Shown here one piece after another: positions 1-55,550 of a stretch of DNA of 64,000 bases. Within the stretch, counting starts at the first letter, position 1; the number at the start of each line of letters is the position of its first letter. Origin of the DNA: Streptomyces sp. MRC013 (GTDB lineage: Bacteria > Actinomycetota > Actinomycetes > Streptomycetales > Streptomycetaceae); contig NZ_CP094264.1 of NCBI RefSeq assembly GCF_023614235.1, positions 434,001 through 498,000 of the forward strand, read 5' to 3'. Position numbers and translations under genes: made by a program. The notes beneath the pieces were generated by a model, which made no database searches, was not told where the DNA came from, and saw only the letters and a list, made by a program, of their open reading frames with translations.

Positions 1-114
1 GTAGACGGCCATCAGGTCGGCGCGGCAGGCGCGCGGCAGGAAGAACGGGGCCACGGGGAAGTTCTCGTCCGCGGCCTTGTCGAGGGTCGTGCGTGCGGGG
101 GCACCGGGGCTCAT
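1..114 (-). CDS. hpnC: Squalene pathway synthase HpnC, N-terminal 38 residues (partial)
   Basis: The minus strand begins with ATG at 114 and stays open to the window edge, giving 38 residues. The stretch TLDKAADENFPVAPFFLPRA followed by RADLMAVY matches the conserved start of HpnC, the trans-isoprenyl synthase of the HpnCDE route. HpnC converts presqualene diphosphate towards hydroxysqualene for hopanoid lipids. The rest of the gene, and presumably the hopanoid cluster, lies outside the window to the left. It is transcribed in the same direction as the polyol/export operon on its right, but 304 bases separate them, so it probably has its own promoter. The family is recognised from sequence memory; catalytic Asp-rich motifs are not inside the window. 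Confidence 0.85.
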   Translation of the reverse strand, partial: MSPGAPARTTLDKAADENFPVAPFFLPRACRADLMAVY

Positions 115-418
115 CCGTCGGGCACCCGTCACCGGCGGCGGCCCGGCACGGGGACGGCGGGCCCCTCGGCCGGCCGGGGATTCTCCGTCATTGCCGTCAC
201 GTCTCCCGTTCTACACTGCGAACCCGATACATCCCATTCCGGACACGCCGCCGGTCTTCGGACCGTTACCGCACATGGCGTGAAACGAACCGGTACAGCT
301 TACGCCGTTCGACGCGGGTGATCGATTCGGCTCGCGGTGCGCACCCACGACGCGGGCCCGGTCCGGACGATCCGGCCGGGCCCCGGCGGCGTGACGTGCG
401 TTTTCCGGTCGAGTCCGG
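115..418. other. Intergenic region upstream of hpnC
   Basis: This region lies between the end of the TagH-like gene and the hpnC start. It is less GC-rich than the flanking genes from about 205 to 320, which suggests a promoter region for the minus-strand hpnC gene. No convincing consensus -10/-35 pair, riboswitch or small gene could be assigned. Confidence 0.4.
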
Positions 419-1221
419 CTAGCGGCCGGTCTCCTTCTCGTAGGCCCGGAGGACCTCGTCGGTCGGCCCGTCCATCAGGAGTTCGCCCTTTTCCAGCCAT
501 AGGACGCGGTCGCAGGTGTCGCGGATCGACTTGTTGCTGTGGCTGACGAGGAAGACCGTCCCGGCCTCCTTGCGCAGTTCGCGGATGCGTTCCTCGGAGC
601 GGATCTGGAACTTGCGGTCGCCGGTGGCCAGCGCCTCGTCGATCATGAGGACGTCGTGGTTCTTGGCGGCGGCGATGGCGAAGCGGAGCCGGGCGCCCAT
701 GCCGGAGGAGTAGGTCCGCATGGGCAGGGTGATGAAGTCGCCCTTCTCGTTGATGCCGGAGAAGTCGACGATGTCCTGGTAGCGCTCCTTGATCTCCTCC
801 CTGGACATGCCCATGGCGAGGCCGCCGAGGATGACGTTGCGCTCGCCGGTCAGGTCGCCCATGAGCGCGGCGTTGACGCCCAGGAGCGAGGGCTGGCCGT
901 CGGTGTAGACCTTGCCCCTCTCGGTGGGCAGCAGGCCTGCGATGGCGCGGAGCAGGGTGGACTTGCCGGAGCCGTTGGTGCCGATCAGGCCGATGGCCTC
1001 GCCCCGGTACGCGACGAAGGAGACGCCGCGCACGGCGTGCACCTTGCGCACGCCGCGGCTCTCCCCCTGTCGCGGCGGAGGATCCGGCTGAGCGCCGCCG
1101 TGGCGCTGCCCCTGCCGGCGGCGCCGCCGCCGTTGACCCGGTACACGACGTGCACGTCGTCGGCGATGACGGTGGGGATGCGCGCCCCGGCGGGGTGGGC
1201 GCCTTCGATGTCGTCAGCCAC
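419..1221 (-). CDS. TagH-like ABC transporter ATP-binding protein (apparent frameshift)
   Basis: This is the ATPase of a polysaccharide/teichoic-acid type ABC-2 exporter. It pairs with the permease immediately upstream; its GTG start at 1221 overlaps that gene's stop by 8 bases. The N-terminal part (MADDIEG..., with ADDVHVVYRVNG) lies in one frame, and from VHAVRGVSF onward the protein continues in another. It has a Walker A (GTNGSGKST), an ABC signature-like TYSSGMGARL, a Walker B (VLMIDEAL) followed by ATGD, and an H-loop (LVSHSNKS). The frames join cleanly if one G is added to the G5 run on the coding strand (C5 at 1063-1067), giving about 268 residues. I read this as a homopolymer error, not a real mutation. 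LLGVNAALMGDLTGERN is typical of the TagH/RfbB subfamily. Confidence 0.85.
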
Positions 1222-2143
1222 GGCCGTACCGCTCCTCAGCCTTCCAGAAGAACACGAACCCGGAGACGCCGACGACGACCGCCCACAGCACCGCGGCCGC
1301 CCAGACGTGGTCGGGCAGGTTGTCGGAGGTGTAGCCCTCGATCAGCGCGAAGCGGACGAGGTCCATGTAGATCGCCGCGGGGTTGTACATCAGGATCTCG
1401 GCGATCCACGCCGGCTTGTCCCGGAGCATGATCGGGATGGAGAACATCACGCCCGACGCGTACATCCACGTCCGCATGACGAACGGCATCAGCTGCGCGA
1501 GGTCCGGGGTCTTGCTGCCGAGCCGCGCCATGACCAGCGCGAGGCCGGTGTTGAACGTGAACTGCAGCGCCAGCGCGGGCACGATCAGCAGCCAGGCGGG
1601 CGACGGGTAGCTGCCGAACAGCGCCGCGATGACGAACAGCACCAGCATCGAGTACAGCAGCTGCTGCAGCTGCTGCAGGGCCAGCGAGATGGGGAGCGAG
1701 GCGCGCGGGAAGTGCAGCGCCCGCACCAGGCCCAGGTTGCCGGAGATCGACTTCACGCCGGACATGACGGAGGTCTGCGTGAACATGAACACGAAGACGC
1801 CCGTCACCAGGAACGGGACGTAGACCTTCTTCTCCATGCCCTTGCCGGCCTCCAGGATCAGGCCGAAGATCGCGAAGTACACCGCGGCGTTCAGCAGCGG
1901 CGTGGCGACCTGCCACAGCTGGCCGAGCCTGGCCTGGCTGTACTGGGCCGTGAGCTTCGCCCGGGAGAAGGTCAGGATGAAGTGGCGCCGTCCCCACAGC
2001 TGCCGTACGTACTCCGCCAGGCCCGGGCGGGCGCCGCTCACCGACAGGCCGTACCTGGCGGCCAGCTCCGCCGGCGTCAGGCCGTCGTCGGGCGAGGGCG
2101 GGACACTCACGGCGACCGGCCGGTCGTGGGTTGTCTCACTCAC
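1214..2143 (-). CDS. TagG-like ABC-2 exporter permease
   Basis: Membrane subunit of an ABC-2 exporter, 309 residues with a GTG start. After a roughly 60-residue cytoplasmic N-terminus come RRHFILTFSRAKLTAQYSQA and LGQLWQVATPLLNAAVYF, a typical start for TagG/RfbA permeases. Six hydrophobic segments follow, including VPFLVTGVFVFMFTQT, SMLVLFVIAALFG and AAAVLWAVVVGVSGFVFFW. Such permeases move lipid-linked glycopolymers or glycolipids across the cytoplasmic membrane. It overlaps its ATPase by 8 bases and follows the glycosyltransferase gene by 109 bases. The company of CDP-alcohol phosphotransferases suggests the cargo is a polyol-phosphate-containing molecule, which is an inference. Confidence 0.88.
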   Translation of the reverse strand: MSETTHDRPVAVSVPPSPDDGLTPAELAARYGLSVSGARPGLAEYVRQLWGRRHFILTFSRAKLTAQYSQARLGQLWQVATPLLNAAVYFAIFGLILEAGKGMEKKVYVPFLVTGVFVFMFTQTSVMSGVKSISGNLGLVRALHFPRASLPISLALQQLQQLLYSMLVLFVIAALFGSYPSPAWLLIVPALALQFTFNTGLALVMARLGSKTPDLAQLMPFVMRTWMYASGVMFSIPIMLRDKPAWIAEILMYNPAAIYMDLVRFALIEGYTSDNLPDHVWAAAVLWAVVVGVSGFVFFWKAEERYGRG

Positions 2144-2252
2144 AGGTCGAAACTTTCGTGTTCACGGTGCGGGGGCGGGAGGGGTGCGGCGGGTGGTGTC
2201 GGCGGAGGGCGGCGGCCCTTCCCGTGCACCGGTCGCGCCGGTTCCGAGCTTG

Positions 2253-3125
2253 TCAGATGACGGGCGGGCGGCCCAGCCGGGTGAGGCGCCACACCGTGCG
2301 CCACCTCATGGGCCGCCGGGGCCCGCAGGGCGTCGTCCAGCCCTCCCTGAAGCCTCCGAACCACGCCTTCAGCGCGGCCCCCGACGGGCGCCTCAGGAGG
2401 GTGAGCAGCAACCACACCCCGACGTACACGGGGACCAGCGGCGCGGGCAGGTTGCGGCGCGCCAGCCACACCCGGTTCCGCGCGACCATGCGGTGGTACA
2501 CGGCGTGCCGGGACGGGGCCGTCGTGGGGTGGTGGAGCACCATGTCGGACCGGTACTCGATCGTCCAGCCGGCGTCCAGGGCGCGCCAGGCCAGGTCGGT
2601 CTCCTCGTGCGCGTAGAAGAACTCGCCGGGCAGCGGGCCGACCTGCTCGACGACCTTGGTGCGCACCGCGCTCGCGCCGCCGAGGAACGTCGTGACGCGG
2701 GAGGACCTCATCGGGTCGGAGGCGCGCAGCCGGGGCACGTGCCGCCGCTGCGTGACCCCGGTCTCCGGGTCGGCGATGCGGAAGCTGAGGATGCCCAGCC
2801 GCGGGTCGGCGGCGAACGCCCGCCGGACCAGCTCCGCGGTGTTCCTCTCGGGCAGCAGCCCGTCGTCGTCGAGGAAGAGCAGCACGTCGACGTCGGAGCC
2901 GTCGGGCCCGAACGCCTCGATGCCGACGTTGCGGCCGCCGGGGATGCCCAGGTTCTCGGGCACCTCGACGGTGCGGACCCAGCCGGGGACCCCGCGGACG
3001 GGGGCGCCGTTGCCGACGACGACGACCTCGACCGGCTCGCCCTCCTGGCGGGCGACGGACTCGATCAGGGCGTTCAGGTCGTCGGGGCGGTCGCCCATGG
3101 TGATGATGACGGCACCGAGCTTCAC
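2253..3125 (-). CDS. Family 2 (GT-A) glycosyltransferase
   Basis: This 290-residue protein starts at GTG 3125, four bases after the stop of the upstream CDP-alcohol phosphotransferase gene; AGGTGA precedes it. The N-terminus AVIITMGDRPDDLNALIESV is the classic GT2 nucleotide-binding start. GIPGGRNVGIEA and the acidic VLLFLDDDGLL (DxD-like metal site near residue 95) follow, then an acceptor region with FFYAHEETDLAWRA (the ED motif of inverting GT2 enzymes). The C-terminus has a short hydrophobic segment, VYVGVWLLLTLLRR, that could bind membrane. It would add a sugar to a lipid or polyol-phosphate acceptor before export by the downstream TagGH-like transporter. The donor and acceptor cannot be told from sequence. 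Confidence 0.88.
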   Translation of the reverse strand: MKLGAVIITMGDRPDDLNALIESVARQEGEPVEVVVVGNGAPVRGVPGWVRTVEVPENLGIPGGRNVGIEAFGPDGSDVDVLLFLDDDGLLPERNTAELVRRAFAADPRLGILSFRIADPETGVTQRRHVPRLRASDPMRSSRVTTFLGGASAVRTKVVEQVGPLPGEFFYAHEETDLAWRALDAGWTIEYRSDMVLHHPTTAPSRHAVYHRMVARNRVWLARRNLPAPLVPVYVGVWLLLTLLRRPSGAALKAWFGGFREGWTTPCGPRRPMRWRTVWRLTRLGRPPVI

Positions 3126-3129
3126 GCGG

Positions 3130-3909
3130 TCACCTCAGCCTGCTCGACGCGAGGACGGACACCAGGTGCAGCAGCGTCTGCAGCAGCGCGATGCCGGCGA
3201 GGACGGCGACGCCGAGGCGGCTGAGGAACAGGTCGCCCCTGACCGCGTCCCCGACCGCCAGGACCACGATGAGCAGCGACGCCTCGATGCCGAGGACGAG
3301 CCGGTGGAACCTGAGCGCCGCGGCGGCCCGGCGGGCCAGCGCCATCCCGGACGAGCGCGGCTCTGCCGCGGCGTCCTTCACCGGCGGCAGGCCGCCCTGG
3401 TGCCGGGCGACGCCGACGAGGTCGGTCTCCGCCTTGATCAGGATCGCGCCGAGGGCGGCCAGGGTGCCGAGGAAGGCCCACAGCCAGTCGATCCGGCCGC
3501 CGCCCCACGGGTCGGCGGCGCGCAGGCCGAAGCCGACCAGGACCGCCGCGTCGCACAGGTAGGCGCCGACCCGGTCGAGGTACACCCCGGAGAGCGAGAA
3601 CTGCTTCTTCCAGCGGGCCACCTCGCCGTCGACGCAGTCGAGCAGCAGGTACAGCTGGACCATCAGCGCGCCCAGGAGCGCCCCGGGGACGCCCGGGACG
3701 AGGAGGGCCGGGGCTGCGAGGACGCCCGCGAGGGTCATCGCGTACGTCAGCTGGTTCGGGGTGACCCGGGTGGTGACCAGGTACCGGGTGACGCGCAGCG
3801 AGATCTCGCGCATGTAGAGGCGGCCGCCCCAGTGCTCTCCGCTGCGGCGGTCCTTGACCCCGGCCGGGTGGACGACCGGGCGGAGTTCAGCTACGGATGG
3901 TCTTGGCAT
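3130..3909 (-). CDS. CDP-alcohol phosphatidyltransferase family protein lacking the fourth motif aspartate
   Basis: Integral membrane protein of 259 residues. It carries the family motif as DCVDGEVAR, eight residues, then GVYLDRVGA. The pattern expects DxxDGxxAR(x8)GxxxDxxxD; the last position here is Ala, where the catalytic-base Asp should be. The nearby aspartate in YLCD is four residues too far. This contrasts with the intact motif in the sister gene at 5670-7481. Four or more hydrophobic helices follow. The gene overlaps the upstream dehydrogenase-like gene by 23 bases, so translation is coupled. It may transfer a phospho-alcohol from a CDP-linked donor with altered chemistry, or act as a non-catalytic partner of the sister enzyme. 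Both options are inference. Confidence 0.82.
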   Translation of the reverse strand: MPRPSVAELRPVVHPAGVKDRRSGEHWGGRLYMREISLRVTRYLVTTRVTPNQLTYAMTLAGVLAAPALLVPGVPGALLGALMVQLYLLLDCVDGEVARWKKQFSLSGVYLDRVGAYLCDAAVLVGFGLRAADPWGGGRIDWLWAFLGTLAALGAILIKAETDLVGVARHQGGLPPVKDAAAEPRSSGMALARRAAAALRFHRLVLGIEASLLIVVLAVGDAVRGDLFLSRLGVAVLAGIALLQTLLHLVSVLASSRLR

Positions 3910-4948
3910 AGTCGGCGTACGCGTCCCTGATCTGGTCGGTGGACAGGTCGAGGTGCTCCAGGATCGTGAAGCGCCCGGGGCGGGTCTGCGGCGCGTACGC
4001 CACGGTCGCGGCGAACTCGTCCGGGGTGAACCCGATCTCCTCGGGCAGCACCGGCAGCCCGTGCCGGCGCAGGACCTCGGCGAAGAGGCCGGCGTCGTCG
4101 CGGGCGCCGCGCAGGTGCATCGCGAAGGCGGCGCCGAGCCCGCACTGCTCGCCGTGGGAGGCGCGGCGGGTCGGGTGCAGCAGGTCGAAGGCGTGGCTGA
4201 TCTCGTGGCAGGCGCCCGACGCGGGCCGGCTGTCCCCGCTGACCGACATGGCGACGCCGGTCAGGACCAGTGCCTCGGCCAGCACGATGAGGAACTCGTC
4301 GTCGCCGACGCCGCCGGGGTGGCGGAGCACGGACTCCCCGGCGGTGCGGGCCATGGCCGCGGCGAGGCCGTCGACGCTCTCGCCGGTGATCCGGTGGGAG
4401 AGCTGCCAGTCGGCGATGGCGGAGAGGTTGGAGATCGCCTCGCCGATGCCGGAGCGCACGTACCGCACCGGGGCGTCCCGGATCACGTCGAGGTCGACGA
4501 CCATGGCGATGGGCGAGGGCACGCCGTAGGAGCCGCGGCCGTTGTCGTTGTCGAGGGTGGCGATCGGCGAGCAGATGCCGTCGTGGGAGAGGTTCGTCGC
4601 GACGGCGACCATGGGCAGGCCGACGCGGGCCGCGGCGTACTTCGTCACGTCGATGATCTTGCCGCCGCCGACGCCGACGACCGCGTCGTACCGCTTGCCG
4701 CGGATGGCGTCGGCGAGGCGGACGGCGGAGTCGATGGTGCCGTCCTCGACCGTGTACCAGCGGGCGTCGGGCAGCAGCGGCTCCAGCTTCCCCCGCAGGG
4801 CGCGGCCGGAGCCGTCGCTGACGGCCATCGCGAGCTTGCCGGAGGCGGAGACCCGCTGGTCGGCGAGGATGCCGGCCAGGTCGTCCATCGCCCCGCGGCT
4901 GATGTCGACGACGACCGGCGAGGGGATGAGCCGGGTCAGTACAGGCAC
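3887..4948 (-). CDS. Iron/zinc-containing dehydrogenase of the glycerol-1-phosphate dehydrogenase group
   Basis: A 353-residue protein resembling sn-glycerol-1-phosphate dehydrogenase (AraM/EgsA). This NAD(P)-dependent enzyme reduces dihydroxyacetone phosphate. The N-terminal half has the nucleotide-binding GVGGGKIIDVTKYAA (residues 92-106). NLSHDGICSPIA (about 119-130) supplies the first metal ligand Asp. SGDSRPASGACHEISHAFD (about 238-255) and ASHGEQCGLG (about 264-273) supply metal-binding histidines. The start is GTG 4948, overlapping the upstream nucleotidyltransferase by 13 bases. In this operon it could make the polyol phosphate that the nucleotidyltransferase activates with CTP. The close 3-dehydroquinate synthase family is less likely because of the DGICSPIA and SRPASG motifs. 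The substrate remains unproven. Confidence 0.8.
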   Translation of the reverse strand: MPVLTRLIPSPVVVDISRGAMDDLAGILADQRVSASGKLAMAVSDGSGRALRGKLEPLLPDARWYTVEDGTIDSAVRLADAIRGKRYDAVVGVGGGKIIDVTKYAAARVGLPMVAVATNLSHDGICSPIATLDNDNGRGSYGVPSPIAMVVDLDVIRDAPVRYVRSGIGEAISNLSAIADWQLSHRITGESVDGLAAAMARTAGESVLRHPGGVGDDEFLIVLAEALVLTGVAMSVSGDSRPASGACHEISHAFDLLHPTRRASHGEQCGLGAAFAMHLRGARDDAGLFAEVLRRHGLPVLPEEIGFTPDEFAATVAYAPQTRPGRFTILEHLDLSTDQIRDAYADYAKTIRS

Positions 4949-5673
4949 GCGATCTCACGGCCCTTCGCCAGGTCGTCGTGGTTGTCGATCTCCACCCAGC
5001 GGACGTCTCCGACGGGGGCCACGTCGATCCGGAAGCCGCGGTGGACGAGCTCCTGGTAGCCGTCCTCGTAGTACAGGTCGGGGTCGCGCTCGAAGGTGGT
5101 CCTCAGGGCGTCGGCGAGGTCGCCGGCGGCCTCCGGCTCGATGAGGGTGACGCCGATGTACTCGCCGGTGGCGGCGGCCGGGTCCATGAGCTTGGTGATG
5201 CGGCGGACGCCGAGGCCGTCCTCGGCGACGACCTTCATCTCCTCGTCGGCGAGGGGCTTCACCGTGTCGAGGGCGAGGATGATCCGCCGGTCGCCGCCGC
5301 GGGCCGCCAGGAGGGTCTGCTCGACGGAGACGGGGTGGACGGTGTCGCCGTTGGCGAGGATCGCGCCCTCCCGCAGCGCGTCGCGGGCGCACCACAGGGA
5401 GTAGGCGTTGTTCCACTCCTCGGCCTTGTCGTTGTCGATCAGGGTGAGCTTCACCCCGTACGCGGCCTCCAGGGCGGCCCTGCGCTCGTACACGGCCTCC
5501 TTGCGGTAGCCGACGACGATCGCGGCCTCGGTGAGGCCGACCTCGGCGAAGTTGGCGAGGGTGAGGTCGAGGACGGTCTTGTCCCCGTCGACCGGCACGA
5601 GGGCCTTCGGAAGCGTGTCGGTGTGGGGACGCAGACGCCGTCCGGCACCGGCTGCGAGTACGAGGCCGATCAT
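4936..5673 (-). CDS. Sugar/polyol-phosphate nucleotidyltransferase
   Basis: A 245-residue cytoplasmic enzyme starting at ATG 5673, whose ATGA overlaps the stop of the upstream gene. The start MIGLVLAAGAGRRLRPHTD and LPKALVPVDG form the GxGxRL...PK nucleotide-triphosphate site of the NTP_transferase family. EEWNNAYSLWCAR, ILANGDTVHPVS (metal-binding Asp) and WVEIDNHDDL near the C-terminus are typical of the small CTP:phosphocholine / CTP:inositol-1-phosphate cytidylyltransferase-like branch. It probably makes a CDP-alcohol that feeds the CDP-alcohol phosphotransferases on both sides of it. CTP as donor is inferred from these neighbours, not from a diagnostic residue. Confidence 0.83.
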   Translation of the reverse strand: MIGLVLAAGAGRRLRPHTDTLPKALVPVDGDKTVLDLTLANFAEVGLTEAAIVVGYRKEAVYERRAALEAAYGVKLTLIDNDKAEEWNNAYSLWCARDALREGAILANGDTVHPVSVEQTLLAARGGDRRIILALDTVKPLADEEMKVVAEDGLGVRRITKLMDPAAATGEYIGVTLIEPEAAGDLADALRTTFERDPDLYYEDGYQELVHRGFRIDVAPVGDVRWVEIDNHDDLAKGREIACLY

Positions 5674-7481
5674 GCGGGTTCTCCTTCGTCGTGTACGGCG
5701 GGTGCTCCGGAGGACACCCAGAAGCGGATGGACTCCGCGAGCCCCACCAGCGCCACGGCGCCGGCGAGGGCGGCGAGCGCCAGGGCGAAGCCGTCTCCGC
5801 CGCCGGTCGCCAGGAGGGCGGCGAGGACGGCCACCAGCAGGGTGCGCCCCTCGTGGCCGCCGAGCGCCCGCACCAGCCGGGCGGGCGGCGCGCCGGCGTT
5901 GCCGCGGATGCGGTACACCGTGTCGTAGTGATGGTAGGCGACGGCCGCGACCAGCCCGAAAGCCGCCGGAAGGACGCCGGGGGCGCCGGCGCGGGCGGCG
6001 AGGACGAGGACGGTGGCGTACTCGGCGGCGCGCAGCACGGGCGGTACGAGCCAGTCGAGGGCCCCCTTCAGGGGGCGGGCCACCGCGGCGCCGGAGGCCA
6101 CGGCGTACAGGACGGCCGCCAGGACGACGAGGGGGCCGCCGAGCGGGGCGGTGCAGGCGGCGGCCAGCAGCACGGCGGCGCCGGCGAGGGCGTAGGGGGT
6201 GCGGCCGCCGAGCGGACGGGCCGCGGGGCTCAGCGCCTTCGCGGCGGCCTCCGCGAGGGCTCCGCTGTCGGCGAGGTCCGCGAGGGCCCGGGCGGCGCGG
6301 TCGGTGCGGCTCGCCCTGCGGGTGAGGGAGCGCAGGACGCGTCCGGCGGTGGTGTAGCAGGCGGCGAAGGCGCAGCCGGCGAGCAGGGCGTAGAAGACGA
6401 CGCGCGGGGTGGCGACGGCGGTGAGGACCGCGATCATGGCCCAGCGCTCGCCGATCGGGAGGACGATCATGCGCCGCGCCCAGACCGTCCAGCCGACGCC
6501 GTCGAGCCGGTCGGAGAGGGCGGCGGTGGGGCTGGTGTTGCCCACGGCGTCGTGGTTGGCCTCGTTGAAGGAGAAGTCCACGACGTGCCGGCAGGTCTGG
6601 AGGACCATCGCGCCGAGGGCGAGCGCCCACACGTCGTCGCCGCCGCGGGCGGCGCCGAGGGCGAGGCCCGCGTAGTACGCGTACTCCTTGGCCCGGTCGA
6701 AGGTGGCGTCGAGCCAGGCGCCGAGCGTCGAGTACTGCAGGGAGTAGCGGGCGAGCTGCCCGTCCGTGCAGTCCAGGACGAAGGAGACCAGCAGCAGCAG
6801 CCCGGCCGCGACGAAGCCGCCGCGGGTGCCGGTGGCCGCGCAGCCGGCCGCGGCCAGCGCGGTGACCAGCGAGGCGGTGGTGACCTGGTTCGGGGTGAGG
6901 CCCCGGTGGGCGCACCAGCGGGCGATGTGGCGCGAGTAGGGGCTGATGAAGAAGGTGGTGAAGAACCCGTCGCGGGACTTCACGGCGGAGCGCAGGCGCA
7001 CCGCCTCCTCGTCCACGGCCGCGACGGCGTCGCGGGTCTCCTTGCGGGTCTGCGGGCCGACCGGTACGGCGGCGACCAGTGATCCGAAATCGGGCCGGTG
7101 GACGGCGACGCCGTCGGCCTCCAGCGCGGCGGCGAGCGCGTCGGGGAGCGTCGCGGGCCTGCCGTCGGGCCCGGGGGCGCCGGCGGGCAGGGCCGCGAGG
7201 GCGCGGGCCAGGGACGGGCGGGCCTCCGGCCGGGCGGTGAGCGCGCCCGGGGCCGCGCCCGCGGCGAAGCGGGGGTCGGTCAGGGCCAGCCGCAGGGCGT
7301 GCCGGTGGCCGACGAAGCGCGGGTCGACGACGGCGACGCGCTCACCGGCCGGTACGGCGGCGAGCAGCGCGGCGGTCTCCCGCGGGTCCGCGGCGGTGCG
7401 GACCTCGAAGCCCAGCGACCGCAGATCGCCCTCGAGCGGCGATCCGGGGACCGGAGGACCGGTGAGGATGGCGGTCGACAG
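5670..7481 (-). CDS. Large CDP-alcohol phosphatidyltransferase with N-terminal regulatory-like domain; apparent CTG start
   Basis: First gene of the minus-strand operon, 603 codons if the start is CTG at 7481. AAGGAG (7491-7496) sits 9 bases upstream. No ATG, GTG or TTG exists in frame before 7016, yet residues 1-155 (LSTAILTGPPVPGSPLEGDL...) are clearly coding and follow a strong ribosome site. The catalytic domain has DCTDGQLAR(x8)GAWLDATFD, the complete CDP-alcohol phosphotransferase motif, followed by many membrane helices. A long C-terminal membrane region (about residues 380-600) has no familiar signature; similar streptomycete proteins are, I believe, grouped under DUF5941. Its stop overlaps the nucleotidyltransferase start (ATGA). 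It likely transfers a phospho-alcohol from the CDP-donor made by the next gene to a membrane acceptor. Confidence 0.85.
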   Translation of the reverse strand: MSTAILTGPPVPGSPLEGDLRSLGFEVRTAADPRETAALLAAVPAGERVAVVDPRFVGHRHALRLALTDPRFAAGAAPGALTARPEARPSLARALAALPAGAPGPDGRPATLPDALAAALEADGVAVHRPDFGSLVAAVPVGPQTRKETRDAVAAVDEEAVRLRSAVKSRDGFFTTFFISPYSRHIARWCAHRGLTPNQVTTASLVTALAAAGCAATGTRGGFVAAGLLLLVSFVLDCTDGQLARYSLQYSTLGAWLDATFDRAKEYAYYAGLALGAARGGDDVWALALGAMVLQTCRHVVDFSFNEANHDAVGNTSPTAALSDRLDGVGWTVWARRMIVLPIGERWAMIAVLTAVATPRVVFYALLAGCAFAACYTTAGRVLRSLTRRASRTDRAARALADLADSGALAEAAAKALSPAARPLGGRTPYALAGAAVLLAAACTAPLGGPLVVLAAVLYAVASGAAVARPLKGALDWLVPPVLRAAEYATVLVLAARAGAPGVLPAAFGLVAAVAYHHYDTVYRIRGNAGAPPARLVRALGGHEGRTLLVAVLAALLATGGGDGFALALAALAGAVALVGLAESIRFWVSSGAPAVHDEGEPA

Positions 7482-7860
7482 ACGAACTCACTCCTTGGAG
7501 CTGACAGCTGCTGGGGCGCGGCGGCTCGGCCCGGTCGCGGGCGGCGGCACGTCGGCAGAGGCTATCGGATGGACGGAAGGCGCAGCTCACCGAGGTTTCC
7601 CCGTGGGGCGGCGCCCGGCCCGACGGGCGGGGCCATCATCGTCGATCACCGGCTCGGCCCACAAACCCCGGGTCCGGGCCGCCCCGGGCGGTGGTGGGCC
7701 GGGAGGTTCCGCGCGGGGCGGCCCCAGGGCCGTCGCGGCTTCGGAGAAGTACAGGTCAGAGGGGATGACAACGGTCTTCAGCGTCGGCTTGCCCCTACCC
7801 CCCGCCCGTAGTTGACTGCCGCCCGGAAGGCAGTCACTGACCTGATCGGGAGGCGACCTC
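7482..7860. promoter_or_regulatory. Divergent promoter region with a dyad before the cation-efflux gene
   Basis: This 379-base region separates the minus-strand operon from the plus-strand efflux gene. At 7813-7836 there is a perfect 8-base inverted repeat, TGACTGCC and GGCAGTCA, with an 8-base spacer. It overlaps a TTGACT that could be a -35 element. It lies just before the ribosome-binding site GGGAGG of the efflux gene, so it could be an operator or a leader hairpin. Nothing else stands out in the remaining sequence. Confidence 0.45.
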
Positions 7861-8799
7861 ATGGGGGCTGGGCACCACCACGGGCACACGCACGGAGGGC
7901 CGCCGACCGGTACGGCCGGCGCCGCGCACCGGTGGCGACTGCGGGTCGCCCTCGCCATCACGGTCTGCGTGATGGTCGTGGAGATCGTCGGCGGCGTCCT
8001 CGCCGACTCGCTCGCCCTGATCGCGGACGCGACGCACATGGCGACCGACGCGGTCGGCCTGGGCATGGCGCTGCTCGCCATCCACATGGCGAACCGCCCG
8101 GCCACCGCGAACCGCACGTACGGCTACGCCCGCGCCGAGATCCTGGCGGCGCTGGCGAACTGCCTGCTGCTCCTGGGGGCCGGCGGGTACGTCCTGCTCG
8201 AGGCGGTCCAGCGGTTCGTCACACCGGCGGACACGAGGGGCGGGCTCACCGTCGTCTTCGCCCTGGTCGGCCTGGCCGCGAACGCGGTGTCCCTGTCGCT
8301 GCTGGTGCGCGGGCAGCAGGACAGCCTCAACGTGCGCGGCGCCTACCTGGAGGTCATGGCGGACGCGCTGGGGTCGGTGACGGTGCTGGTGGCCGCCGGG
8401 GTGATCATGACCACGGGGTGGCAGGCGGCGGACCCGATCGCGTCGCTGGTGATCGCCGTGATGATCGTCCCGCGGACGGTGAAGCTGCTCCGGGAGACGC
8501 TGGACGTGCTGCTGGAGTCGGCGCCGAAGGACGTGGACATGACACAGGTGCGGGCGCACCTGCTGGCGCTGCCGGGGGTGGAGGACGTCCACGACCTGCA
8601 CGCCTGGACGATCACCTCGGGGATGCCGGTACTGTCCGCGCACGTGGTCGTGGAGGGGAGCGTGCTCGACGGCGGGGGCCAGGAGAAGATGCTGCACGAC
8701 CTCCGGGAATGCCTGGTGGGCCACTTCGACGTGGAGCACTGCACCTTCCAGCTGGAGCCGAGCGGATACGCGGTGCACGAAGCGGGCCTGTGCCACTGA
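7861..8799 (+). CDS. Cation diffusion facilitator (CzcD/ZitB type) metal exporter
   Basis: A 312-residue inner-membrane proton/metal antiporter. The N-terminus GHHHGHTHGG is a histidine-rich metal-binding stretch. Six transmembrane segments follow. Metal-site motifs are ADATHMATD in helix 2 (HxxxD) and EVMADALGS in helix 5 (the usual partner is HVLGDALGS, so Met replaces one common residue). The cytoplasmic C-terminal domain has EDVHDLHAWTITSG, typical of the ferredoxin-like zinc transporter dimerisation domain. GGGAGG precedes ATG 7861. Likely substrates are Zn(II), Cd(II) or Co(II). The dyad upstream at 7813-7836 may be its metal-responsive operator. Confidence 0.93.
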   Translation: MGAGHHHGHTHGGPPTGTAGAAHRWRLRVALAITVCVMVVEIVGGVLADSLALIADATHMATDAVGLGMALLAIHMANRPATANRTYGYARAEILAALANCLLLLGAGGYVLLEAVQRFVTPADTRGGLTVVFALVGLAANAVSLSLLVRGQQDSLNVRGAYLEVMADALGSVTVLVAAGVIMTTGWQAADPIASLVIAVMIVPRTVKLLRETLDVLLESAPKDVDMTQVRAHLLALPGVEDVHDLHAWTITSGMPVLSAHVVVEGSVLDGGGQEKMLHDLRECLVGHFDVEHCTFQLEPSGYAVHEAGLCH

Positions 8800-36277: not shown

Positions 36278-37252
36278 GTGACCCTTGCCTCTCCCCACCT
36301 CGGCAGTTCGGCGGAATGGACCGATGCCCGGCTGCTGCACGCGTTGGAAGAGGTGGTCGAGAAGGAACTGAACCGCCATCTCAAGGCCGCCAAGGACTGG
36401 ATGCCGCATGAGTACGTCCCCTGGTCGGACGGCCGGAACTTCCCCGGCCTCTTCGAGGACGGGGAGCCTTGGGACCCCCGGCAGTCGAAGGTGTCCGACG
36501 TGGGCCGGATCGCCCTGGTGGTGAACCTCCTCACGGAGGACAACCTGCCGAGCTACCACCACGAGATCGCCACCCTCTTCGGCCGGGACGGCGCCTGGGG
36601 CACGTGGGTCCACCGCTGGACCGCCGAGGAGGGCCGCCACGGCATCGTGATGCGGGACTACCTGCTCGCCTCGCGGGCGGTGGACCCGGACATGCTGGAG
36701 CGGTTCCGCATGACCCACATGAGCGAGGGCTTCGAGTCGGACAACCGGCACTCGGCGCTGCACTCGGTGGCGTACGTGGCGTTCCAGGAGCTGGCGACGC
36801 GGATCTCGCACCGCAACACCGGGCACCGGTCGGGCGACCCGGTGTGCGACCGCATGCTGGCGCGCATCGCGACGGACGAGAACCTGCACATGGTCTTCTA
36901 CCGGAACCTGCTGGGAGCGGCCTTCGAGCTCGCCCCCGACCTCACCATGCGGGCGGTCAGGGACGTGGTGGTCGACTTCCGGATGCCCGGGCACGGCATG
37001 CCCGGCTTCGAGCGGGCGGCGGCCCAGATGGCCATCGGCGAGATCTACAACCTGCGCATCCACCACGACGACGTGCTCCAGCCGGTGCTGCGGTTCCTCA
37101 GGGTCCTGGAGATCGACGGGCTCGGCCCGGAGGGTCTCCGGGCCCAGGAGGAGCTGGGTCTGTACATGAACGGGCTGGACGCGGAGGCGGCGAAGTTCGA
37201 CGAGAGGCTCGCCGCGCGCAAGGCCCGGATGGCGGCCCGCGCCGAACGCTGA
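36278..37252 (+). CDS. Acyl-[acyl-carrier-protein] desaturase (ferritin-like diiron)
   Basis: A 324-residue soluble desaturase from GTG 36278 with CCAGGAG upstream. ALEEVVEKELNRHLKAAKDW begins the helical bundle and supplies a metal-ligand Glu. DNLPSYHHEIATLFG, WVHRWTAEEGRHGIVMRDYL (EExxH) and MLARIATDENLHMVFYRNLL (DExxH) supply the rest of the diiron ligands. It introduces a double bond into ACP-bound fatty acids using oxygen and ferredoxin. The motif in the second site is DENLH rather than the plant DEKRH, as in actinobacterial DesA-type proteins. The strong operator upstream (36235-36252) indicates tight control. Confidence 0.92.
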   Translation: MTLASPHLGSSAEWTDARLLHALEEVVEKELNRHLKAAKDWMPHEYVPWSDGRNFPGLFEDGEPWDPRQSKVSDVGRIALVVNLLTEDNLPSYHHEIATLFGRDGAWGTWVHRWTAEEGRHGIVMRDYLLASRAVDPDMLERFRMTHMSEGFESDNRHSALHSVAYVAFQELATRISHRNTGHRSGDPVCDRMLARIATDENLHMVFYRNLLGAAFELAPDLTMRAVRDVVVDFRMPGHGMPGFERAAAQMAIGEIYNLRIHHDDVLQPVLRFLRVLEIDGLGPEGLRAQEELGLYMNGLDAEAAKFDERLAARKARMAARAER

Positions 37253-54488: not shown

Positions 54489-55550
54489 ATGGCGCAAGAT
54501 TCCTCTCACAGGGCCGCCGCGGGTCGGCCGCACCGGGTCGTCGTGATCGTGGACGAGAACTCCAATCCGTTCGAACTGGGCTGCGCGACCGAGGTCTTCG
54601 GCCTGCGCAGGCCGGAGTTGGGACGCGACCTGTACGATTTCCGCCTGTGCTCCCCGGAGCCGGACACGTCGATGCGGGACGGCTTCTTCACCCTCACGGG
54701 CGTCGCCGGCCTGGAGGCCGCCGAGTCGGCGGACACCCTGATCGTCCCCAACCGGCCCGATGTCGGGGTGCCCCGCCGTCCGGCCGTGCTGGACGCGGTC
54801 CGGCGGGCGCACGCGCGCGGCGCACGGCTCGTCGGGTTCTGCAGCGGCGCCTTCACGCTCGCCGAGGCGGGGGTCCTCGACGGGCGCCGGGCCACCGCCC
54901 ACTGGCAGTGGGCGGACTCCTTCCGGGCCCTCTTCCCCGCCGTCCGGCTGGAGGAGGACGTGCTGTTCGTCGACGACGGGGACGTCCTCACCGCCGCGGG
55001 CAGCGCGGCCGCCCTCGACCTCGGACTGCACCTCGTCCGCCGGGACCACGGCGCGGAGGCCGCCAACTCGGTCAGTCGGCGCCTCGTCTTCGCGGCGCAC
55101 CGGGACGGCGGGCAGCGGCAGTTCATCGAGCGCCCCCTCCCCGACGCCCCCGGTGAGACGCTGGCGCCCGTCCTCGCCTGGGCGCAGGGCCGGCTGGACG
55201 CACCGCTGGCGGTGACCGACCTCGCGGCGCGCGCCTCGGTCAGCCCGGCCACGCTGCACCGCCGGTTCCGGGCGCAGTTGGGGACGACTCCGCTCGCGTG
55301 GCTCAGGCGGGAGCGCGTCGCCCTCGCGTGCCGGCTGATCGAGCGGGGCGAGTCGCGCTTCGAGGTGGTCGCCCGGCGGAGCGGACTGGGCACCGCCGCC
55401 AACCTGCGCGCCGTGATGCGCCGCGAGACGGGGCTCCCTCCGTCGGCGTACCGGCGCCGGTTCGGCCCGGGGTCCTCCCCGGCACCCGTACCGGTCGCGC
55501 CCGGGGAGGGCGGGGCGGCGCTCCGGCCGGCCGGTCCGGGCCCGGCATGA
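54489..55550 (+). CDS. GlxA-type transcriptional regulator (DJ-1/PfpI plus AraC)
   Basis: A 353-residue protein from ATG 54489. Residues 15-200 are the DJ-1/PfpI amidase-like sensor domain (VVVIVDENSNPFELGCATEV, LVGFCSGAFTLAEAGVLDGR with the nucleophile-position Cys, AHWQWADSF). Residues 230-330 are the AraC DNA-binding domain with two helix-turn-helix units (LAARASVSPATLHRRFRAQL and GTAANLRAVMRRETGLPPSA). The final Pro/Gly-rich 25 residues are probably disordered. It divides a short control region with the cupin gene. Confidence 0.92.
   Translation: MAQDSSHRAAAGRPHRVVVIVDENSNPFELGCATEVFGLRRPELGRDLYDFRLCSPEPDTSMRDGFFTLTGVAGLEAAESADTLIVPNRPDVGVPRRPAVLDAVRRAHARGARLVGFCSGAFTLAEAGVLDGRRATAHWQWADSFRALFPAVRLEEDVLFVDDGDVLTAAGSAAALDLGLHLVRRDHGAEAANSVSRRLVFAAHRDGGQRQFIERPLPDAPGETLAPVLAWAQGRLDAPLAVTDLAARASVSPATLHRRFRAQLGTTPLAWLRRERVALACRLIERGESRFEVVARRSGLGTAANLRAVMRRETGLPPSAYRRRFGPGSSPAPVPVAPGEGGAALRPAGPGPA

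Follow-up and report, generated by a model that had tools for sequence, protein, structure and literature searches.

A conserved Streptomyces operon linking a glycerol-1-phosphate dehydrogenase homologue and a nucleotidyltransferase to a CDP-alcohol phosphotransferase homologue that lacks the fourth aspartate of its signature

We analyzed a 64,000-nucleotide stretch (the window) of the 5.33-Mb single-contig genome of Streptomyces sp. MRC013 (contig NZ_CP094264.1, positions 434,001 to 498,000), which carries a seven-gene operon on its minus strand. Read from position 7481 down to 419, the operon encodes a cytidine diphosphate (CDP)-alcohol phosphotransferase (CDP1), a nucleotidyltransferase (NTP), a glycerol-1-phosphate dehydrogenase homologue (G1PDH), a second CDP-alcohol phosphotransferase homologue (CDP2), a GT2 glycosyltransferase (GT2), a TagG-like permease and a TagH-like ATPase. 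An initial annotation had described the first five genes as overlapping or nearly touching and had ended the cluster at 7481. Both statements agree with the sequence: the junctions from CDP1 downward are -4, -13, -23 and +4 bases, with a fifth of +109 to TagG, and CDP1 starts at 7481 with a CTG codon preceded by AAGGAG. Of 23 Streptomyces loci, 13 have CTG and 10 have TTG at this start.

The seven genes occur in identical order, followed by hpnC, in all 23 of these loci, which comprise 20 Streptomyces loci (own genome included) and three (L090, L105 and L116) from a search of named loci. The named loci are the best 80 of 578 by similarity to the NTP of L053, with much of the set coming from a few genera, chiefly Micromonospora. 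Among 82 non-Streptomyces loci with NTP, tblastn matches to any part of the query placed CDP2 in 54, GT2 in 51, CDP1 in 46, a TagH-like gene in 24 and a TagG-like gene in 23; 22 of the 82 are shorter than about 20 kb, and absences are lower bounds. One of the 54 CDP2 matches (L056) is a cross-match on the CDP1 gene, and the phosphotransferase signature was present in 36 of the 46 CDP1 matches. The operon is common to every Streptomyces examined, its core occurs in many other actinobacteria, in loci of several families and classes, and gene order and linkage go far beyond chance.

NTP and G1PDH form this core. Of 105 loci with an NTP above 100 bits, 104 contained G1PDH, and in 100 the two genes lay on the same strand within 60 bp; G1PDH was found in 101/101 Streptomyces genomes (E<=1e-15). 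Weaker NTP homologues were followed in 14 of 27 such genomes, some chosen for TagF nearby, and here a G1PDH homologue was adjacent in seven, about 3 kb off in one and not found in six. The initial annotation had offered linkage in related genomes as a test of its pathway. Linkage held for the NTP-G1PDH pair, whereas only some non-Streptomyces loci have the complete seven-gene order. By sequence, NTP matches LicC best, and cytidine triphosphate (CTP) is the substrate of its nearest sequence and fold relatives, which are of the LicC/IPCT type. For the dehydrogenase gene, glycerol-1-phosphate dehydrogenase is both the best model and the best solved relative, though the score to NF002022 (240.8 bits) lies under the curated cut-off of 413. 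As a side observation, a weaker NTP adjoins a CDP-alcohol phosphotransferase without G1PDH in L162 and L163, perhaps as part of an inositol-type or other CDP-polyol pathway.

We next compared the two phosphotransferases. CDP1 carries the complete signature DxxDGxxAR...GxxxDxxxD, and its fourth aspartate (D4), the presumed catalytic base of the family (PMC4634129, PMC6506517), is kept in 61/61 CDP1 motif matches. CDP2 has the CDP-alcohol phosphotransferase family fold, and D4 is absent from 77/77 of its locus copies, where the position holds His (49) or Ala (28); the pattern behind these D4 counts requires the remainder of the signature. D4 is also absent from the 120 listed of 5301 homologous CDP2 clusters (E<=1e-20), which have Ala in 68 cases and His in 52. 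The alignment of CDP2 with AF2299 is ungapped. The tree was drawn from a thinned set of Streptomyces rows and leaves out one short row with His. CDP2 is under purifying selection despite the missing D4, with a ratio of nonsynonymous to synonymous substitution rates (dN/dS) of 0.12 relative to L034. The D4-less CDP2 is what is new in this analysis, and we found no CDP-alcohol phosphotransferase without D4 described in the one open-access library searched.

The closest solved relatives of CDP1 and CDP2 are IPCT-DIPPS and AF2299 of Archaeoglobus, and some of the best-matching solved CDP-alcohol phosphotransferases make lipids (PIP synthases, choline phosphotransferase). The DUF5941 domain of CDP1 is a stand-alone gene in 34 other loci and occurs in 28/396 actinobacterial genomes, including all 20 Streptomyces. 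NTP and G1PDH are followed in Micromonospora (L132, L065) by a third CDP-alcohol phosphotransferase that retains D4. Downstream of the Micromonospora core lie a histidine kinase and a LytTR response regulator, seen by Pfam in L132 (16501-18589) and by clustering in L065.

The initial annotation had also named a TagGH-like exporter. The assignment stands, with a TagH-type ATPase whose nearest solved chain is TagH 7dd0 (E 4.2e-51) and an ABC-2 permease (PF01061), except that TagH is split between two frames in this genome: the initial ~50 codons (GTG 1221 to about 1062) are out of frame relative to 1051-419, and the partial frame scores 175.8 bits, below the equivalog cut-off of 320. For GT2, there was no solved relative at E<=0.01. 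The TagH frame break is unique to this genome (1/23), the other 22 Streptomyces loci having a single frame. This genome is also peculiar in G1PDH, where codon 170 is Glu and the other 22 loci have Asp; we take this position to be a metal ligand of the dehydrogenase family. A TagF-type polymerase (PF04464, E<=1e-10) had no match in this genome and was present in all 19 other sampled Streptomyces (19/20). We considered whether these three features mark decay of the operon, but each of the seven genes has a dN/dS below 0.4 relative to L034 (0.05 for the open part of TagH), so any decay would be recent or partial, or the TagH break would be an assembly error. Such an error is possible, as is loss of the need for the operon after TagF loss in this genome.

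We then examined the neighbours of the core in other actinobacteria by a Pfam scan of 40 proteins in L051, L053-L056, L063, L065, L066, L078 and L132. The scan found a TagF-type polymerase fused to a GT2 domain in L055, a weak TagF-like match (24.5 bits) in L056, LCP ligases in L054, initiating sugar transferases in L056 and L132, a UDP-glucose dehydrogenase in L063, and GT2 and GT4 enzymes. IspD-type cytidylyltransferases lie near the core in L063 (5913-6638) and L078 (6149-7555), the latter fused to a short-chain dehydrogenase as in CDP-ribitol enzymes; the core may serve ribitol polymers in these two loci. Sulfotransferase genes adjoin the cluster in L051, L053 and L055, from other actinobacterial classes, and suggest that the surface product of those loci may be sulfated. 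Unrelated genes were found as well (a Tex-like AAA protein, Fpg, CorA and a two-component system). When 86 non-Streptomyces loci were clustered by BLAST, 41 had a member of the LCP family and 34 a member of the GT2 family of L054, while the IspD and initiating transferase families were present in 22 and 20 loci, respectively; the Pfam scan covered the named members of these families.

TagF directly adjoins NTP-G1PDH in L157 and L158, part of a chosen rather than random sample. Outside the genus, TagF was present in 5/7 genomes with an NTP above 400 bits, versus 31/369 without (p 1.1e-4, by a Fisher test that ignores relatedness, the seven genomes representing five families). A TagD-type cytidylyltransferase above the cut-off was found in 0/20 Streptomyces, with sub-cut-off matches in 12/20; its absence above 100 bits from the seven non-genus NTP genomes (0/7) is uninformative, since 17/376 genomes carry TagD.

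Table 1. Features of the operon and its flanks, in window coordinates
Feature	Position	Strand	Domain, model or remark
CDP1 (CDP-alcohol phosphotransferase + DUF5941)	5670-7481	-	PF01066 residues 196-302; PF19365 residues 394-603
N-terminal extension of CDP1, ~150 residues	before the phosphotransferase domain, which holds the complete signature	-	
DUF5941 domain of CDP1 (residues 394-603)	5673..6302	-	PF19365
NTP, LicC/IPCT-like nucleotidyltransferase, presumed CTP:glycerol-1-phosphate cytidylyltransferase	4936-5673	-	PF00483
G1PDH, glycerol-1-phosphate dehydrogenase homologue	3887-4948	-	PF13685; NF002022
G1PDH codon 170, Glu within GIG[D] motif	4439..4441	-	
CDP2, CDP-alcohol phosphotransferase homologue without fourth signature aspartate	3130-3909	-	
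CDP2 codon 116, Ala at D4 position	3562..3564	-	
GT2 glycosyltransferase	2253-3125	-	
TagG-like ABC-2 permease	1214-2143	-	PF01061
TagH-like ATPase, open-frame part	419-1051	-	PF00005
hpnC start, truncated by window edge; outside proposed system	1-132	-	from locus L050
zitB-like exporter, divergent right-hand neighbour of operon	7861-8799		
Promoter-like box pair ahead of CDP1	7563-7589	-	TGARC-N16-CCGATA; here TGAGC

The box pair TGAAC-N16-CCGATA precedes CDP1; as a pattern (TGARC) drawn from the alignment, it is present in 20/23 Streptomyces loci and may be an ECF-sigma (extracytoplasmic function) or Pho-type site. From the accessible parts of the sources, zitB of S. coelicolor is SCO6751 (PMC5472717) and its hopanoid cluster SCO6759-71 (PMC2374992), so by this numbering the operon should be SCO6752-6758, with NTP as SCO6753 and the dehydrogenase as SCO6754. 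Elsewhere in the window, 36629-36696 (minus strand) matches the ASdes small RNA of tuberculosis bacteria in Rfam (53.3 bits versus a gathering score of 40), and a 97-base tRNA-Ala (CGC) called by ARAGORN at 55290-55386 (plus strand), unsupported at the Rfam gathering score, is probably spurious.

The enzyme classes and order of steps put forward in the initial annotation (polyol phosphate, CDP-polyol, phosphotransfer, glycosylation, export) are consistent with homology and fold. We give about even weight to the operon being an actinobacterial module for a teichoic-acid-like envelope glycopolymer with its own CDP-glycerol supply. For substrates, stereochemistry, acceptor, product and, in Streptomyces, the LCP step, we infer the following route. 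G1PDH would reduce dihydroxyacetone phosphate to the 'archaeal' enantiomer, sn-glycerol-1-phosphate, which NTP would join with CTP to give CDP-1-glycerol. CDP1, with its complete active site, would transfer glycerol-1-phosphate to a membrane-anchored acceptor, probably a polyprenyl-diphosphate-linked sugar, and so act as a primer or linkage-unit synthase filling the place of TagB in Bacillus. CDP2, which keeps the CDP- and metal-binding residues without the D4 base, could be a partner, a regulator or an unconventional transferase. GT2 would add a sugar, TagGH would flip the product outward, and its attachment to peptidoglycan would fall to LCP ligases whose genes lie elsewhere. A more specific version, which we hold tentatively and on balance lean against, is that actinobacteria make CDP-1-glycerol and from it a teichoic acid or linkage unit of mirror-image type, based on sn-glycerol-1-phosphate, with CDP-alcohol phosphotransferases replacing TagB and TagF and the conserved base-less CDP2 serving as an obligate partner or a new catalytic route.

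Reported wall chemistry weighs against a glycerol-1-phosphate polymer. The wall polymers of S. coelicolor are teichulosonic acid and polydiglycosylphosphate (PMC7831098), S. griseus has a ribitol-phosphate teichoic acid and a teichuronic-acid-like part (PMC13274773), and the accessible parts of these two papers name no glycerol-1-phosphate polymer. Glycerol-1-phosphate might then be confined to a short linkage unit or to a lipid. In an alternative reading, the phosphotransferase would transfer it from CDP-1-glycerol to diacylglycerol or a glycolipid, GT2 would glycosylate the product, and TagGH would flip a phosphoglycolipid or an anchor resembling lipoteichoic acid, no polymer being linked to the wall. 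We find this unlikely. It draws on the lipid-making enzymes among the best solved phosphotransferase matches, on a Streptomyces operon without a TagF or LCP gene and on the missing TagF match in this genome, but sits poorly with the wall-polymer neighbours elsewhere (the LCP family in 41/86 loci, TagF, initiating sugar transferases). It is quite unlikely that NTP instead makes CDP-inositol, another CDP-polyol or CDP-choline, the phosphotransferases forming inositol-phosphate or choline-type lipids or solutes and G1PDH serving another step. NTP and both phosphotransferases do resemble IPCT-DIPPS, AF2299 and PIP synthases, LicC is the best match of NTP, and L162 and L163 lack G1PDH; yet the near-inseparability of NTP and G1PDH (100/105) is difficult to account for if neither supplies the other.

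Two further readings follow from associations in the initial annotation. Its placement of the operon beside hopanoid genes held in Streptomyces, where hpnC comes next in 23/23 loci, and failed outside, where neither hpnC nor shc was found in the 82 NTP loci (0/82, 22 of them shorter than ~20 kb). The hopanoid link is local to Streptomyces loci; L038 and L105 have several kb of other sequence between TagH and hpnC. We rejected a hopanoid function as a general role and regard it as highly improbable that the operon acts with the adjoining hpn genes to decorate or export a hopanoid. As for the two chemistries to which the operon had been likened, teichoic-acid assembly gained support from the actinobacterial neighbours and the co-occurrence of TagF, whereas the lack of PcrB (GGGP synthase) in 101 Streptomyces genomes (0/101), in a search that matches B. 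subtilis and archaea, speaks against archaeal-type lipid chemistry. An earlier PcrB search gave one sub-cut-off match, of 21.3 bits, in this genome alone. We give almost no credence to G1PDH feeding an archaeal-type ether lipid: the G1PDH homologue is clear, and the accessible part of PMC6431249 lists the genus Streptomyces with other bacteria in which there are species that carry all three archaeal lipid genes, but the partner of G1PDH here is a cytidylyltransferase.

If the proposed CDP-1-glycerol supply is correct, it would have consequences beyond this operon. It has been argued that the vast majority of bacteria contain no free glycerol-1-phosphate and that they likely have no CDP-1-glycerol (PMC8262930, accessible part); the G1PDH-cytidylyltransferase linkage and the presence of G1PDH in 101/101 Streptomyces would contradict this argument. 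Bacterial G1PDH would gain a role outside ether lipids, and surface polymers of opposite handedness would be predicted. The analysis also brings to light a large CDP-alcohol phosphotransferase subfamily without the presumed base (5301 clusters, 120 inspected), which makes the mechanism of the family directly testable.

The locus itself has been noted before. Section 3.10 of PMC13118837 mentions a Streptomyces syntenic region with crtB, tagH, tagG, araM, a CDP-alcohol phosphatidyltransferase, a GT2 and a nucleotidyltransferase, which is the same locus by gene content; the accessible part of that paper gives no pathway, signature residue or non-Streptomyces genomes, and beyond this brief mention we found no description of the pathway in the one open-access library searched. 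With AraM/PcrB of Bacillus and archaeal EgsA, the operon shares a G1PDH homologue, but its partner is a cytidylyltransferase and not PcrB. IPCT-DIPPS and AF2299 of Archaeoglobus similarly pair a cytidylyltransferase-type domain with a CDP-alcohol phosphotransferase, whereas the operon has separate genes, adds G1PDH, GT2 and an exporter, and has a CDP2 without D4. The wall teichoic acid pathway is that of TagD, TagB, TagF and TagGH in Bacillus and Tar in Staphylococcus. Compared with it, the operon has a LicC/IPCT-kind cytidylyltransferase for TagD, a dehydrogenase for glycerol-1-phosphate rather than glycerol-3-phosphate, CDP-alcohol phosphotransferases for TagB, and no polymerase in Streptomyces. 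The two are alike in CDP-polyol supply, transfer to a membrane acceptor, glycosylation and TagGH export, and in the TagF and LCP genes that lie near the core in other actinobacteria.

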